Below are positions 50,759 through 57,173 of a DNA stretch of 64,000 bases, piece after piece. Position 1 is the stretch's first letter; each line of letters opens with the position of its first letter. Under the pieces are notes generated by a model. The model was not told where the DNA came from and did not search any database. It was given only the letters and a program-made list of their open reading frames with translations. The position numbers and the translations under genes were made by a program. Origin of the DNA: an uncultured Rhodopila sp. (GTDB lineage Bacteria; Pseudomonadota; Alphaproteobacteria; Acetobacterales; Acetobacteraceae); assembly GCA_903851415.1 (NCBI GenBank), contig CAINOE010000086.1:62001-126000 (forward strand), given 5' to 3'.

Positions 50759-51790
<1,032 letters not shown>

Positions 51791-51839
51791 TCACGATGTG
51801 ACAAAAAAGTGTCGCGGCTTATGACCGAAGCCGCGTGGT

Positions 51840-52499
51840 TTATCCAGACGGGGTTTGTCCGGGCTGTATTGCGGGTGCGGCGACCAGGCGGCGGAGACCG
51901 TCGCGCAGCTTGATGAAGCTGGGGGAGCGGTTGGCGTCCGGGTTCATCAGCGGGCCGATGCGGTTGGCCCATTCGTGTTTCAGGTCGCCGGGCAGGGGGC
52001 CTCCGGGTTTGCCCGGGTGGAGCGCGCCGGCGAGCATCTCCCACGTGCCGCAGACTGCATCCTGTCGGTAGCGCTTGAGAACGGCCTTCCGGGCTTTTGG
52101 GTAAGCGGTTTGCAAAGCGTTGGGGTCGCCGAAATACCAGGCGTCGGTTTCCTCGATCGCCAGCCGGAACATGGTCTTGCCTTCGGCACCGCGGGAAGCG
52201 GCGAGATAGCGCAGTTCGGCCAGAAAGGCGGCGCAGTCGCGGTCGTCGGCGTCCAGCACGACGACCACCGCGTCGATGTCGGGTGTTTTGGCGTAGCCGC
52301 CCAGCACACGGGGGAGCTGATCAAGCAGGATGCGTTTGGCCGGGTCGCCGCTTTTCATGCTCGGAGGGATGCGGCCAATGCCGCGGTAGGCTGTGACGCG
52401 CCAGGAATGCGGCTCACCGTTTCGCCCGATCAGCTTTGGCAGCAGGTGTTCGAGCAGCACCTTGCCGGAGCTGTCCTCGGTGAGAACCTCGATGTGCAT
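51840..52499 (-). CDS. DUF4276-family protein, probable Toprim-like nuclease partner
   Basis: 219 residues. N-terminus MHIEVLTEDSSGKVLLEHLLPKL corresponds to the VEGxTE opening of DUF4276, with two acidic residues (Glu4, Glu8); AVVVVLDADDRDC has the Asp-x-Asp of a Toprim-like metal site; AIEETDAWYFGDPNALQTAYPKA is the typical third block. These acidic positions make a nuclease likely, but that is an inference; no such protein is characterised here. Its gene starts two bases after the ATPase stop, so the two are one translational unit. Confidence 0.7.
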   Translation of the reverse strand: MHIEVLTEDSSGKVLLEHLLPKLIGRNGEPHSWRVTAYRGIGRIPPSMKSGDPAKRILLDQLPRVLGGYAKTPDIDAVVVVLDADDRDCAAFLAELRYLAASRGAEGKTMFRLAIEETDAWYFGDPNALQTAYPKARKAVLKRYRQDAVCGTWEMLAGALHPGKPGGPLPGDLKHEWANRIGPLMNPDANRSPSFIKLRDGLRRLVAAPAIQPGQTPSG

Positions 52500-52501
52500 C
52501 G

Positions 52502-53713
52502 CTATCTGGGGTCAAGGTAATCGCTGAACCAAAGCCCGCCCAGCGGCAGGCCCTCGGCGACCATGTTGCGGACGAGTTCGCTGTCCGAGGCGCGGCGGAT
52601 GGTGGAGAACCCGTCGGCACCTTTTTCGAGGATCCAGACTTCCTCGGGCGACAGGGCGTCCACGAAGTATGGCTGGTGGGTGGTGACAATGATCTGCGTC
52701 GCGTTATCCGCACCGGTGGCGTGTGCGCGAAATTCCTTCGCAAGGACTTCCAGCAGCTTGGGATAGAGGCCGTTCTCGGGTTCCTCGATACAGATCAGCG
52801 GCGGCGGTTCGGGGTCCTCAAGCAGCAGCATGTAGGCGAATAGCTTCAACGTGCCGTCCGACATCTGTTGGGCGAAAAAAGGATCGGTGAAGCCCCGGTC
52901 GTTGAAGCGCAGCAGCACGCGATTGTCTTCGGTGACTGTTGTTTCGATCTTTTCGATCCCGGGGATGCGTTCGGCGATGCGGCGCAGAACCGACTGGAAG
53001 CGCACCTTGTTGTCGCGCTCCATGAACTGGACGACGTTGCCGATGTTGTCGCCGCGCATGTTCAGGTGGCGTTGTGGACCAGCGGAGGGAAGGACGCGTG
53101 CAGCGTCTGGTGTGAAATAGGAAAGATACCAACGCTTCATGAAGTCGCGAAAGCGACTTATGCGGGGATGGTCCCGCAATGATCCCAGGGTGGCAACGCC
53201 GAGTTGGCTTGTATCGGCTAACTCGACCTCCACAGCCGTTTCTGATTCGGATGGTTGCTCGCCGGTCTTTACCCACCCTTTGCCCTGCAACAAGTCCAGG
53301 AACGCCCAATCATGGACATTTGGTTGCCGCTTCTCTTGAAGAAGTGCCTCGGAGTACACACTCGGTCGACCGGTTTTGTCTGTGTCGATCAGAAGCTCGT
53401 AAAAGATAGGGCTGTGATCGCCGGACTCCCGGTAGCGGACCGTAAAGCTAATGGGCGCGGTTACACCTTGCGAACGCAGACGCTCGAACCCGCCGCGCTG
53501 CTCCTTATCGCAAGCCGCTTCAACGCCAGAATTCAGGCAGTCGGCCAGGAAACCAAAGGCATCGAACAGGGAGCTCTTGCCCGACCCGTTCTGCCCAATC
53601 ACGGCCGTAAGACCGGTCAAAGGGCTTCGTACACCGTCACCCGGCGCTTGCCCAAGCGTAACGTCCCGCAGCGAGCGGTAGTTCTGAACCCGGAATCCCT
53701 CGATCAGCGCCAC
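52502..53713 (-). CDS. AAA ATPase (AAA_21/OLD-like ABC-type ATPase)
   Basis: 403 residues. Walker A at 40-47 (GQNGSGKSS), ABC-like signature QQMSDGTLKLFAYML, Walker B LICIEEPENGLYPKLLEVL, and the switch His in IIVTTHQPYFVDAL. No Toprim domain of its own, unlike OLD proteins, which fits with its separate DUF4276 partner. Such SMC/OLD-type ATPases are frequent sensors in phage defence modules. Base composition is a little less GC-rich than the ilv genes around it, consistent with acquisition. Sits 57 bases after ilvH. Confidence 0.85.
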   Translation of the reverse strand: MALIEGFRVQNYRSLRDVTLGQAPGDGVRSPLTGLTAVIGQNGSGKSSLFDAFGFLADCLNSGVEAACDKEQRGGFERLRSQGVTAPISFTVRYRESGDHSPIFYELLIDTDKTGRPSVYSEALLQEKRQPNVHDWAFLDLLQGKGWVKTGEQPSESETAVEVELADTSQLGVATLGSLRDHPRISRFRDFMKRWYLSYFTPDAARVLPSAGPQRHLNMRGDNIGNVVQFMERDNKVRFQSVLRRIAERIPGIEKIETTVTEDNRVLLRFNDRGFTDPFFAQQMSDGTLKLFAYMLLLEDPEPPPLICIEEPENGLYPKLLEVLAKEFRAHATGADNATQIIVTTHQPYFVDALSPEEVWILEKGADGFSTIRRASDSELVRNMVAEGLPLGGLWFSDYLDPR

Positions 53714-53770
53714 CCCCGCTCCTTTCCTCCAACCCGACCCGCCGCCAAACGACGGGTTCGGCGGGAAAGC

Positions 53771-54289
53771 CTATATCACCCGCGTCCCGCGCGCGATGGC
53801 GGCGATGCCGCTGCGCGACACCTCGGCCAGGCCCAGATTCCGCATCAGCTCGATGAACGCGTCGATCTTCTCGGTCGCCCCGGTCAGCTCGAACACGAAG
53901 CTGCCGAGCGTCGTATCGACCACCCGGGCGCGGAACGTATTGCCGACCTGCAGCGCCTCGACCCGTTGTTCGGCGGAGCAGACCACCTTCACCAGCGCCA
54001 GTTCCCGCGCCACATGCGGCCCCTCCATCGTCAGGTCCGCCACGCGGTGCACCGGCACCAGACGATCAAGCTGAGCCTTGATCTGCTCGATCACCATGCT
54101 GGTGCCCGACGTCACGATATTGATCCGGCTGCGCAGCCCGGCCTCATCTATCGGCGCCACCGTCAGACTGTCGATGTTGTAGCCGCGGCCGGAGAACAGC
54201 CCGATGACCCGCGCCAAAACGCCGGCTTCGTTGTCCACCACGACCGATATGGTCGCGCTGCGTTGGGTCGTGTCAGTGATGCTGGACAT
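53771..54289 (-). CDS. ilvH: Acetolactate synthase small (regulatory) subunit
   Basis: 172 residues from ATG 54289. An N-terminal ACT domain (ATISVVVDNEAGVLARVIGLFSGRGYNIDSLTVAP) binds valine for feedback control, followed by the C-terminal ACT-like domain. Partner of the large subunit just upstream (90 bases). A longer form to 54352 lacks homology. On its other side the ATPase/DUF4276 pair separates it from ilvC. Confidence 0.95.
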   Translation of the reverse strand: MSSITDTTQRSATISVVVDNEAGVLARVIGLFSGRGYNIDSLTVAPIDEAGLRSRINIVTSGTSMVIEQIKAQLDRLVPVHRVADLTMEGPHVARELALVKVVCSAEQRVEALQVGNTFRARVVDTTLGSFVFELTGATEKIDAFIELMRNLGLAEVSRSGIAAIARGTRVI

Positions 54290-54379: not shown

Positions 54380-56158
54380 TCAGACCAGCGCAAGACCCGC
54401 GTCGGTGATCCCGGCGCCGGAGGCTTCATGCTCCGGACCCAGCAGCATCTCGTTATGCGCCGCGCCGCTGGGGATCATCGGGAAGCAGTTCTCCGCCTGG
54501 TCCACCGCGATATCGGCGATCACCGCGGTCGGGCAATCGAGCATGGCATGGATCACCGCATCCAGTTCATCGACCGACTGCGCCCGCATGCCGGTCGCAT
54601 GGTAGGACTCCGCCAGCTTGACGAAATCCGGCAGCGCGTTCGAGTAGGTCTCGGAATACCGGCTGCCATGCAGCAGTTCCTGCCACTGCCGCACCATGCC
54701 CATGTACTGGTTGTTCAGGATGAAGATCTTCACCGGCAGGCGATACTGCGCGATCGTGCCCATCTCCTGGATGTTCATCTGGATCGAGGCCTCGCCGGCG
54801 ATGTCGATCACCAGCGCATCGGGATGCGCAAGCTGCACACCCATCGCGGCCGGCAGGCCATAGCCCATGGTGCCCAGCCCGCCGGAGGTCATCCAGCGGT
54901 TCGGCTTCTCGAAATTGAAGTGCTGCGCCGCCCACATCTGGTGCTGGCCGACCTCGGTGGTGATGAAGACTTCCTGTTTGCGCGCGCGGGTGATCTCATA
55001 CAGGCGCTGGATGGCGTATTGCGGCTTGATGATGCCGCCGCGCCGCATGTCCTGGGTGAATTTCAGGCTCTTCTTTTCGCGCCAAACGTCGATCTGGCGC
55101 CACCAGGACGCCAAAGCCGGCTTGTCCACCGGCGCGTCGCTGGCCTTCCAGGCCGCCAGCAGCGCTTCGAGAGCCTTGCCCGCGTCGGCGACGATCGGGA
55201 TGTCCACGGCAACGTTCTTGTTGATGGACGACCCGTCTATGTCGATATGGATCTTCTGCGAGCCCTGGCTGAACGCGTCCAGCCGCCCGGTGATCCGGTC
55301 GTCGAAGCGCGCCCCGATGGCCAGCATGACGTCGCAGCCATGCATCGCCAGGTTCGCTTCATATGTCCCGTGCATGCCGAGCATGCCGAGGAACTGCGGA
55401 TCGCTGGCCGGATAGCTGCCCAGGCCCATCAGCGTGTTGGTGATCGGGAAGCCTGTCGTGCGGGCGAACTGCGTCAGCAGCGCCGACGCTTCCGGCCCGG
55501 CGTTGATCACGCCGCCCCCGGCATAGATGACCGGCCGCTTCGCCCCCTTCAGCAGCGCCACAGCCTTGGCGATCTGTTCGGCGTCCGGCTCGGTGCGCGG
55601 GCGATAGCTCGGGTGCTGCACCGTCGGCTCCGCATACGGAGCCTTGTTGATCACGATGTCCTTCGGCAGATCGATCACCACCGGGCCGGGGCGGCCATGG
55701 CTGGCGACATAGAACGCCTCATGCACCACACGCGCGAGGTCTTCCGGCCGCTTGACCAGGTAGTTGTGCTTTGTCGCCGGCCGGGTGATGCCGGTGGTGT
55801 CGGCTTCCTGGAACGCATCGTTGCCAATCAGATGCGTCGGCACCTGTCCGGTCAGGCAGACGATCGGGATGCTGTCCATCAGCGCATCGACCAGTCCGGT
55901 GACCGCGTTCGTCGCGCCCGGCCCCGAGGTCACAAGCACGCAGCCGGTGCGGCCCGTGGACCGGGCATAGCCCTCGGCCGCATGCACCGCCGCCTGCTCG
56001 TGCCGCACCAGGATGTGGCGGATCGAGTTCTGCTGGAACAGCGCATCGTAAATCGGCAAAACGGCGCCGCCGGGATAGCCGAAGATGATCTCTACGCCCT
56101 GATCCTTAAGCGCCCGTAGAAGAATTTCCGCTCCCGACTGAGTCAATTCCGCCGCCAT
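54380..56158 (-). CDS. ilvB: Acetolactate synthase large (catalytic) subunit
   Basis: 592 residues of ThDP-dependent enzyme. The catalytic Glu is in RHEQAAVHAAEGYARSTG; the ThDP/Mg motif GEASIQMNIQEMGTIAQYRLPVKIFILNN starts with G and ends NN. FAD-binding middle domain present. Condenses two pyruvates. Comes 55 bases after miaA on the same strand; whether miaA is in the same transcript is uncertain. Confidence 0.97.
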   Translation of the reverse strand: MAAELTQSGAEILLRALKDQGVEIIFGYPGGAVLPIYDALFQQNSIRHILVRHEQAAVHAAEGYARSTGRTGCVLVTSGPGATNAVTGLVDALMDSIPIVCLTGQVPTHLIGNDAFQEADTTGITRPATKHNYLVKRPEDLARVVHEAFYVASHGRPGPVVIDLPKDIVINKAPYAEPTVQHPSYRPRTEPDAEQIAKAVALLKGAKRPVIYAGGGVINAGPEASALLTQFARTTGFPITNTLMGLGSYPASDPQFLGMLGMHGTYEANLAMHGCDVMLAIGARFDDRITGRLDAFSQGSQKIHIDIDGSSINKNVAVDIPIVADAGKALEALLAAWKASDAPVDKPALASWWRQIDVWREKKSLKFTQDMRRGGIIKPQYAIQRLYEITRARKQEVFITTEVGQHQMWAAQHFNFEKPNRWMTSGGLGTMGYGLPAAMGVQLAHPDALVIDIAGEASIQMNIQEMGTIAQYRLPVKIFILNNQYMGMVRQWQELLHGSRYSETYSNALPDFVKLAESYHATGMRAQSVDELDAVIHAMLDCPTAVIADIAVDQAENCFPMIPSGAAHNEMLLGPEHEASGAGITDAGLALV

Positions 56159-56213
56159 GTCCGGTTCCCGTTGCTGAATACCGGCGGACGGTTAGGCCGG
56201 TTGAAACCGGGGG

Positions 56214-57173
56214 TCAACCCAAGTTTTCAATAAACATGAACAAATCAGCGCGTTCGCTTTCCGAAAGTTGCTCTAAACGAGAAAATCGCGCATTAATCCG
56301 CAATATGCGGGTCTGGGGTGCAAGCACGTGATGACGAAACCATGTCGCCTGGCGCTTTGTGTACTGGCCGGTAACCAGCTCCGTCCGCCGCCCGGCCTCC
56401 TGCAAGGACAAATCGCCGCGCAGATGCGCCGACAGTTCCGGCACGCCATGCGCCCGCATTGCCGGCAGGCTCGGGTCGAGATCGAGTGCCGCCAACCGCC
56501 GCACTTCGTCCAGCGCGCCCTGCCGCATCATGCTGCCGAACCGCATGGCGATGGCAGCGCGCAGGCTGTCGCGCGGAGGGTCGAGCAGGATGGCGGAAAA
56601 GCGCCATGGGGCCGGCTCGGACCTGCGGTCCTGCCAGGCCGCCAGGCCAAGACCTGTGCCGCGCCAGACTTCCCAGGCGCGCGCCACACGCTGGCTGTCC
56701 TCGGGCTTCAGCCGCGCGGCGGTGAGCGGATCGACGGCGGCCAGCTCGGCGTGCAGCGCGGCGGGGCCGCGCCCGGCCAGCAGCGCGCGCGCCTCCGCCC
56801 GCGCGTCCGGCCCCGGATCGGGCACATCGGCGATGCCATCCGTCAGCGCCGCGAAATACATTCCCGAGCCGCCGGTCAGTATCGGCAGGCGGCCGGCGCT
56901 CCGGGCTTCCTGCATCGCCGCCAGCGCCTGTTCCCGCCACCACGCCACGCTGCCGGCCTCGGCGGCGGGACGGATGCCGTAAAGACGGTGGGGAACGAGA
57001 CCCTCTTCATCAGGCGTCGGCCGCGCTGTGAGAACGCGGAGTTCCTGATACACCTGCATCGAATCGGTGTTGATGATGGTGCCGCCGAGGCGCCGTGCGA
57101 TGTCCAGCGCCAGCGCGGACTTGCCGCTGGCCGTCGGCCCCGCGACAAGCAGCGCGCCGGGCCAATCGGCCAT
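56214..57173 (-). CDS. miaA: tRNA dimethylallyltransferase (delta(2)-isopentenyl-diphosphate transferase)
   Basis: 319 residues from ATG 57173. P-loop GPTASGKSALALDIARRL, then DSMQVYQELRVLTARPT and GGSGMYFAALTDG. Transfers a dimethylallyl group to A37 of tRNAs reading UNN codons. The C-terminal half (TGQYTKRQATWFRHH) is intact. A tiny gene lies five bases upstream, on the same strand. Confidence 0.95.
   Translation of the reverse strand: MADWPGALLVAGPTASGKSALALDIARRLGGTIINTDSMQVYQELRVLTARPTPDEEGLVPHRLYGIRPAAEAGSVAWWREQALAAMQEARSAGRLPILTGGSGMYFAALTDGIADVPDPGPDARAEARALLAGRGPAALHAELAAVDPLTAARLKPEDSQRVARAWEVWRGTGLGLAAWQDRRSEPAPWRFSAILLDPPRDSLRAAIAMRFGSMMRQGALDEVRRLAALDLDPSLPAMRAHGVPELSAHLRGDLSLQEAGRRTELVTGQYTKRQATWFRHHVLAPQTRILRINARFSRLEQLSESERADLFMFIENLG

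Follow-up and report, generated by a model that had tools for sequence, protein, structure and literature searches.

Within a 64,000-nucleotide stretch from an uncultured Rhodopila sp. (NCBI GenBank assembly GCA_903851415.1, contig CAINOE010000086.1, positions 62,001 to 126,000; the whole stretch is hereafter called the window), two genes, named A and B here, lie between the branched-chain amino-acid genes ilvH and ilvC. The minus strand reads ilvB, ilvH, A, B, ilvC (Table 1). Gene A encodes an ATPase and gene B a DUF4276 protein; 2 bp separate the two (52500-52501) and 61 bp separate B from ilvC, and neither the list of open reading frames (ORFs) nor Pfam revealed any gene besides A and B between ilvH and ilvC. 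An earlier note on this DNA had described such a closely spaced pair, co-oriented with the ilv genes, and the ORF coordinates and Pfam assignments agree with it. The start of ilvH was set inside an ORF open to 54352, as the matches of its relatives begin near the chosen start. The GC content at third codon positions of A (0.715) falls below that of the six measured neighbours (0.784-0.909, B included), with 0.791 for B and 0.784 for miaA, which is a weak hint at a foreign origin of A. A second, divergent ATPase and DUF4276 pair is found elsewhere in the same genome (G000:C96:45343-47246; loci L001 and L257), its ATPase being 35% identical over a partial length.

Table 1. Features of the ilv locus in the window, in order of transcription.
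Feature	Position	Strand	Basis
ilvB, acetolactate synthase large subunit	54380..56158	-	Pfam TPP_enzyme_N/M/C
ilvH, acetolactate synthase small subunit, upstream flank of the slot	53771..54286	-	Pfam ALS_ss_C 5e-25, ACT
ilvH-A spacer, 57 bp, with ribosome-binding-like stretch AGGAAAGGAG	53714..53770	-	Putative role of the stretch
Gene A, HEC-01A OLD/ABC-type ATPase, 403 residues, GTG start	52502..53713	-	PADLOC PDLC04182, Pfam AAA_21, motifs
Gene B, HEC-01B DUF4276 Toprim-like protein, 219 residues	51840..52499	-	PADLOC PDLC04205, DUF4276; conserved acidic E8, D83, D85, E117
Terminator-like hairpin followed by ACACTTTTTT, between B and ilvC	51813..51835	-	Hairpin scan; similar in G008, G006, G029
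ilvC, ketol-acid reductoisomerase, downstream flank of the slot	50759..51778	-	Pfam KARI_N 1.6e-71, KARI_C 4.2e-65

The product of gene A matches the PADLOC model HEC-01A (PDLC04182) at 3.1e-178 and 590.9 bits, from residue 1 to 401 of 403 and over model positions 1-401 of 406, and the Pfam family AAA_21 at 1.7e-39. Its motifs are intact: GQNGSGKS at 40, MSDGT (SDGT-type) at 284, ICIEEPENG at 307 and TTHQP at 344, which we take to be the Walker A motif, the ABC-type signature, the Walker B motif and the His switch, respectively. The key residues of these motifs are invariant in an alignment of 39 rows, which bears out the previous description of A as an OLD/SMC-like ATPase with intact Walker motifs. 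A profile search returned the OLD-family protein 6p74 as the best solved relative (E 2.9e-5), and the layout of A is of the OLD/ABC type rather than AAA+, a point also made for related modules (partial text of PMC12839542). Relatives of A were found in 110 of 72,556 plasmid records, 109 of them at less than 60% identity, and in four of 50,697 phage records; B matched three times in plasmids. One sequence entered as a phage from human faecal material (MT836340.1, 7027-8244) codes for an ATPase with 45% identity to A across 99% of its length.

Gene B matches the HEC-01B model (PDLC04205) at 1e-79 and 265.2 bits over residues 1-204 of 219 and model positions 1-211 of 213. Its match to DUF4276 in Pfam covers residues 8-202 (6.8e-6), with 26.9 bits under a gathering score of 30.2. 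The metal set of Toprim proteins consists of a Glu followed by an Asp-x-Asp motif. B carries this set of the Toprim nuclease superfamily in E8, D83 and D85, and these three residues are, together with D9 and E117, invariant in all rows of an alignment of 79 B sequences, in which E4 is kept in 77 and E116 in 78. The alignment contains the window and was obtained from 92 sequences after removal of five duplicates, of L012, L013, L101 and L133, which lack a B match from its start, and of L065, L080, L114 and L130, whose B frame is shorter than 200 residues. The earlier note had pointed to an acidic, Toprim-like pattern in B (Glu4, Glu8, Asp83, Asp85) and had named a fold lacking a metal-binding acidic cluster as the contrary outcome; the acidic residues are conserved across the 79 rows.

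Profile comparison links the wider family to a known group of proteins. Nine DUF4276 proteins aligned by hhalign against 33 RloB-type ORFs gave 88% at an E-value of 3.1e-6, in an alignment that spans the Glu, Asp and E/FE-W blocks, and RloB has been reported as OLD-TOPRIM-related (partial text of PMC10440598). The nine proteins come from 11 DUF4276 loci, ten from other genomes in a 240-genome class sample and one being the second copy in the own genome, with two omitted for an internal stop; the RloB set comprises 33 of 37 ORFs, from 39 fetched and 37 examined loci. With narrow profiles, B reaches 0.45% against DUF4435 (five rows, two below the Pfam cut-off) and 0.15% against an IlvH control. 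RloB and DUF4435 give 2.2% with each other, which is as weak as the links of B, so narrow profiles do not decide the matter. RloB in Pfam was reached by only one of 47 relatives (E 0.044). Against solved structures, the DUF4435 profile had a best E-value of 0.3, and the top matches of the RloB profile were two designed proteins (0.0025 and 0.011), regarded as chance. Several observations weaken the case for a Toprim fold of B. Position 119 is Asp in B and mostly Glu in its relatives, a profile search for solved relatives of B had a best E-value of 0.57, the wide DUF4276 set supplemented with 16 HEC-01B rows gave 32% (E 5e-4) against RloB, and the narrow HEC-01B profile gave a weak 2.4%; the predicted fold rests on the motifs and one profile match.

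Because the HEC-01A and HEC-01B models match both proteins near full length, the nearest described system for the pair, as judged from these profiles, is HEC-01, a candidate defence system of PADLOC-DB 2.0.0. The pair is thus not new, being already modelled by PADLOC, and the adjacency that HEC-01 asks for is present in two genes on the same strand and 2 bp apart. Payne and colleagues reportedly introduced the HECs in a preprint. HEC stands for Hma-embedded candidate, and several of them, HEC-06 among these, showed activity (partial text of PMC12988326); the term is absent from the available text of the PADLOC paper of 2021 (PMC8565338). A literature search, with subscription papers and most preprints outside its scope, found no experimental test or mechanism of HEC-01, nothing on DUF4276 and no earlier report of an ilv-sited pair. 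Combining Rhodopila with phage returned nothing on defence judging by titles, and ilvC with anti-phage returned an Acinetobacter review. The window copy resembles HEC-01 in both genes, in their order and in its near full-length profile matches, with relatives embedded in other defence operons. It differs in standing alone within a biosynthetic operon.

Comparison with characterized systems places the pair beside, rather than within, other known modules. PARIS likewise consists of an OLD-type ABC ATPase (AriA) and a Toprim-like protein (AriB) encoded by separate genes, and an early effector Glu is required there: AriB is a two-metal tRNA nuclease and its E26A mutant is inactive (partial text of PMC12409363). 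A matches AriA at 4.8e-36 versus 3.1e-178 for HEC-01A, and an assignment to PARIS was rejected, as Pfam finds no DUF4435 and AriB is not among the 13 PADLOC matches of B. AbiL and the RloB-type pairs of an ATPase with an OLD-TOPRIM protein also place a small Toprim-like gene next to an AAA-type ATPase and show the profile similarity between DUF4276 and RloB, whereas B itself is a DUF4276 protein. By analogy, the pair most likely works like PARIS and AbiL without being PARIS itself. The TOPRIM-linked OLD-ABC modules described in BREX loci (PMC12839542, whose main text, as far as available, does not mention DUF4276) are comparable as well, since several bacteria have pairs of the same family flanked by PglX on one side and BrxH/PglZ on the other; in contrast, narrow queries found no BREX gene around the eight ilv-sited loci examined. 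A BREX-embedded module was therefore rejected for the window, where the neighbours are ilvH and ilvC and where PglX, BrxH and PglZ are matched by none of these eight loci. Gabija (GajA/GajB) was rejected too, as A has 403 residues and no Toprim family in Pfam and is followed by B and ilvC.

The relatives of A provide information on partnership and context. Searches of genome contigs yielded 208 loci, of which the best 80 were fetched and examined. In 79 of these 80 a B match lies directly downstream of A, limited to the N-terminal part in L080, L114 and L130. The sole case of A without a B match in the fetched stretch is L101 from Noviherbaspirillum suwonense. An A-like ATPase ORF is also present in the fetched stretch of all 11 DUF4276 loci and of 28 of the 37 RloB loci. 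No ilv gene occurs in the fetched stretch of 72 of the best 80, and these non-ilv loci were screened with 11 narrow context queries drawn from the same loci, on flanks of varying length. A BREX query matched 11 of them, ten being kept after L095 was dropped for a short helicase match of 39%, and five further loci have a type I restriction-like gene beside the pair, four of these five calls resting on 27-30% identity to the gene in L072 (PADLOC REase_I). In total, 15 of the 72 are defence-sited. The gene order is PglX-A-B-BrxH-PglZ in L057 and L059, and in L066 HEC-02 is located between PglX and A. HEC-02 directly beside HEC-01 near BREX genes (L066 4448-5997, L060 1941-3478, L061 5740-5997) gives the appearance of stacked candidate modules. 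The suggestion that an ATPase with a separate Toprim-like partner is the layout of a defence module thus finds agreement in the HEC-01 models, in BREX and restriction neighbourhoods elsewhere and in the DUF4276-RloB profile match.

The same pair can be followed at its ilv site in related genomes. From 40 fetched stretches around ilvC the gap between ilvH and ilvC was readable in 39. Among 32 genomes of the same genus, 29 sites were readable (G016, G017 and G028 were left out, with ilvC partial or not found): eight contain the intact pair, one a remnant and 20 no pair. In these 20, the ilvH stop and the ilvC start are 14-373 bp apart. The remnant in G006 (L133 3849-4813) retains residues 1-146 of A and 43-219 of B between intact ilvH and ilvC genes. 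Outside the genus, the pair is absent from all ten readable relatives of this ilvC-centred set (G034 was unreadable). Long gaps without the pair occur in L167 (G038, 670 bp), L146 (G030, 320 bp) and L147 (G019, 373 bp). In a sample of 299 genomes of the family, nine, the own genome included, have a match of at least 60% identity. Eight of the nine are ilv-sited, G516, G632 and G680 among them lying outside the genus (the same records as L099, L056 and L058); the ninth, G703, has a stretch of 3057 bp in which no ilv gene was matched. The ilv-sited pairs found amount to 12, of which three belong to two other genera. Relative to most relatives the pair is an insertion, as the earlier note had supposed, and its absence from them speaks against the contrary case of a housekeeping set fixed in all relatives.

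Taken together, we consider it probable that the two genes are an anti-phage module of the HEC-01 type, which entered the ilv locus once and was subsequently lost and exchanged. A defence role as such is very probable on the strength of the sequence comparisons, and for the specific mechanism with a Toprim effector, drawn by analogy, we see the balance tipping slightly in favour. We infer the fold of B, the complex of A with B, a nuclease activity, its target and the trigger. A would assemble with B, hold it inactive and sense infection; B, as a Toprim-fold metal nuclease, would then be set free or activated and cleave nucleic acid, perhaps a host RNA such as tRNA if PARIS is a guide, and this cleavage would halt the infected cell. 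The module would have entered the ilvH-ilvC gap in an ancestor of these Acetobacteraceae and, in this slot, could use a ribosome-binding site of its own for translation from an ilv transcript. Many losses would have followed, as well as swaps between lineages, for which homologous recombination in the flanking ilv genes is the simplest route. On the other side of the scale, a PARIS-like pair of AAA protein and toxin gave no phage protection in Escherichia coli (partial text of PMC10440598), 57 of the 72 non-ilv loci were left unclassified by the 11 narrow queries, and none of the eight ilv-sited loci matches any of these BREX and restriction queries.

The two genes could instead constitute a selfish pair resembling a toxin-antitoxin system, in which B is the toxin and A the antitoxin, and which is maintained by addiction while giving no real protection from phages. 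Such an arrangement would suit a two-gene operon, and for a TOPRIM_OLD toxin from the RloB-like node, neutralisation by the AAA partner has been reported in E. coli (partial text of PMC10440598). The 20 empty sites among 29 in the genus and the deletion remnant in G006 nevertheless suggest that loss is tolerated, and relatives embedded in BREX and restriction operons point to defence, so that we regard addiction as an unlikely basis for the persistence of the pair.

To return to the defence module and its history, all 12 ilv-sited pairs lie on one side of a branch with a support of 99 in the Shimodaira-Hasegawa-like approximate likelihood ratio test (SH-aLRT) in a tree of 79 A+B pairs, and none of the other 67 falls inside. 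It counts against a single entry that this tree was built by a quick method and holds long rows, that of G010 among them. On a tree of ilvBHC with 39 rows, presence and absence require at least eight changes, seven of them forced by starred branches, with gain and loss indistinguishable in these counts. The label 'pair' is barely clustered on it (nine changes versus a shuffled mean of 10.5, with 104 of 500 shuffles as low), and the empty state is clustered (eight changes versus 11.1 shuffled, nine of 500 as low). For the 12 carriers, the tree of the pair is better than the ilv topology by 261 log units (approximately unbiased, AU, test, p ~4e-73).

Two cases illustrate this conflict. The pair of L099, from another genus, joins those of G001, G009 and G026 with support of at least 99.6/100, whereas its ilv genes are placed outside the 99/97 clade of these three genomes, and outside the bulk of the genus at only 81/59. 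The pair of G010 joins those of the window, G008 and G029 at 100/100, whereas its ilv genes join those of G012 at 100/100. In an rpoB tree of 19 genomes, G012 is again the partner of G010 (100/100); G013 is close to them, whereas G000, G006 and G008 are placed elsewhere. Since rpoB and ilv agree on G010, it is the pair that moved there; that ilv flanks moved around a stationary cassette is, given rpoB, less likely for this genome, and would still amount to recombination at the slot.

G026, with the pair, and G011, without it, were compared along the operon. Upstream of ilvB the two diverge by about 12%, and from ilvB to ilvC they are 98-99% identical (L156/L157). From just before ilvB to late ilvH they differ at 23 of 2200 positions (1%), at the end of ilvH adjoining the pair at 13 of 136, over most of ilvC at about 1.8%, and in the last 88 positions of ilvC at seven. 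The whole ilv operon may have recombined between the two lineages, with the conservation of ilv explaining part of the pattern. These comparisons are best explained by a single entry into the slot, after which the pair was lost repeatedly and exchanged by way of the flanking ilv genes; we infer the direction of change, with loss over gain, and recombination as the vehicle.

That the cassette was inserted independently several times into a hot spot between ilvH and ilvC, instead of entering once and being exchanged, would likewise account for the eight or more changes in presence and absence, for the weak clustering of carriers on the ilv tree and for the conflict of the two trees. We hold this to be improbable in view of the single clade formed by the ilv-sited pairs. 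Moreover, the repeats around the pair are short and chance-like, no further gene accompanies A and B, and the empty junction of G011 consists of the ilvH stop and the ilvC leader with a microhomology of only 2 bp.

The exchange could also be an appearance only, produced by vertical inheritance with fast evolution, so that the tree conflict would be a rate artefact. The branch of G010 is long, and the divergence of A and B greatly exceeds that of the neighbouring genes: between G000 and G008, A is 74% and B 72% identical, versus 97-98% for IlvB and IlvC and 93% for IlvH. Divergence at four-fold degenerate sites in the same comparison is high as well, with 0.47 for A and 0.39 for B, versus 0.17-0.22 for the ilv genes, though seven other flank genes reach 0.23-0.44. 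This speaks against the artefact, as do the rejection of the ilv topology in the AU test, the nesting of the L099 pair among G001, G009 and G026, unlike its ilv genes, and the fully supported placement of the G010 pair against both ilv and rpoB; we give a pure rate effect little chance. High synonymous divergence was also considered as proof of replacement or of an older cassette and set aside in view of the values reached by the other flank genes; codon constraint on ilv explains part of the gap, and divergence is therefore not used as such proof. Finally, a part of the pair in making branched-chain amino acids, be it housekeeping or regulatory, as suggested by position and co-orientation within ilvBHC, is highly improbable and was rejected, with the pair missing from most readable ilv operons and its relatives largely located away from ilv and partly in BREX or restriction contexts.

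For the single-entry module, the surroundings in the window give some indications of expression. A is preceded by its own ribosome-binding-like site, and co-transcription of the pair with the ilv genes appears plausible from the arrangement. A terminator-like hairpin followed by a T-run (T6 in the window) lies in the gap between B and ilvC in G000, G008, G006 and G029, which makes read-through to ilvC uncertain; the hairpin should lower the transcription of ilvC, except if this gene is served by a promoter of its own. In the other nine ilv-sited loci the scan reported no such hairpin, with the B stop of G010 placed past a stretch with a similar hairpin, so that this stretch was unscanned. Terminator-like matches were also found in four gaps without the pair (G014, G003, G035 and G038), which means that the scan lacks specificity. 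Between 49000 and 58000 of the window, no ilv leader RNA family was detected, and an S-adenosylmethionine (SAM) riboswitch match at 56169-56250 was rejected as sub-threshold (21.8 bits versus a gathering score of 44.4).

From the interpretation first proposed, what holds is an extra pair that most relatives lack, an ATPase with a Toprim-like partner and an association with defence; the pair itself already has a PADLOC model in HEC-01, and the proposed setting of its expression by ilv co-transcription, like the proposed tie to valine/leucine status, is a conjecture. As parts, the two genes belong to a known kind, and the unexpected aspect is their housing in the ilv operon and the mode of exchange. 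The locus offers a natural experiment, with very similar ilv operons with and without the pair (G026 and G011), a broken copy (G006) and swapped alleles. It also suggests that a system sitting alone in a core operon can escape surveys focused on defence islands. For some Acetobacteraceae, we regard it as evenly poised whether the ilvH-ilvC junction is a fixed immune slot, in which a defence pair free of mobility genes would be gained, lost and exchanged across lineages and genera, with homologous recombination in the highly conserved flanking ilv genes as the means and the ilv operon serving as docking site and expression platform. Conserved flanks alone may carry a defence module between genera.

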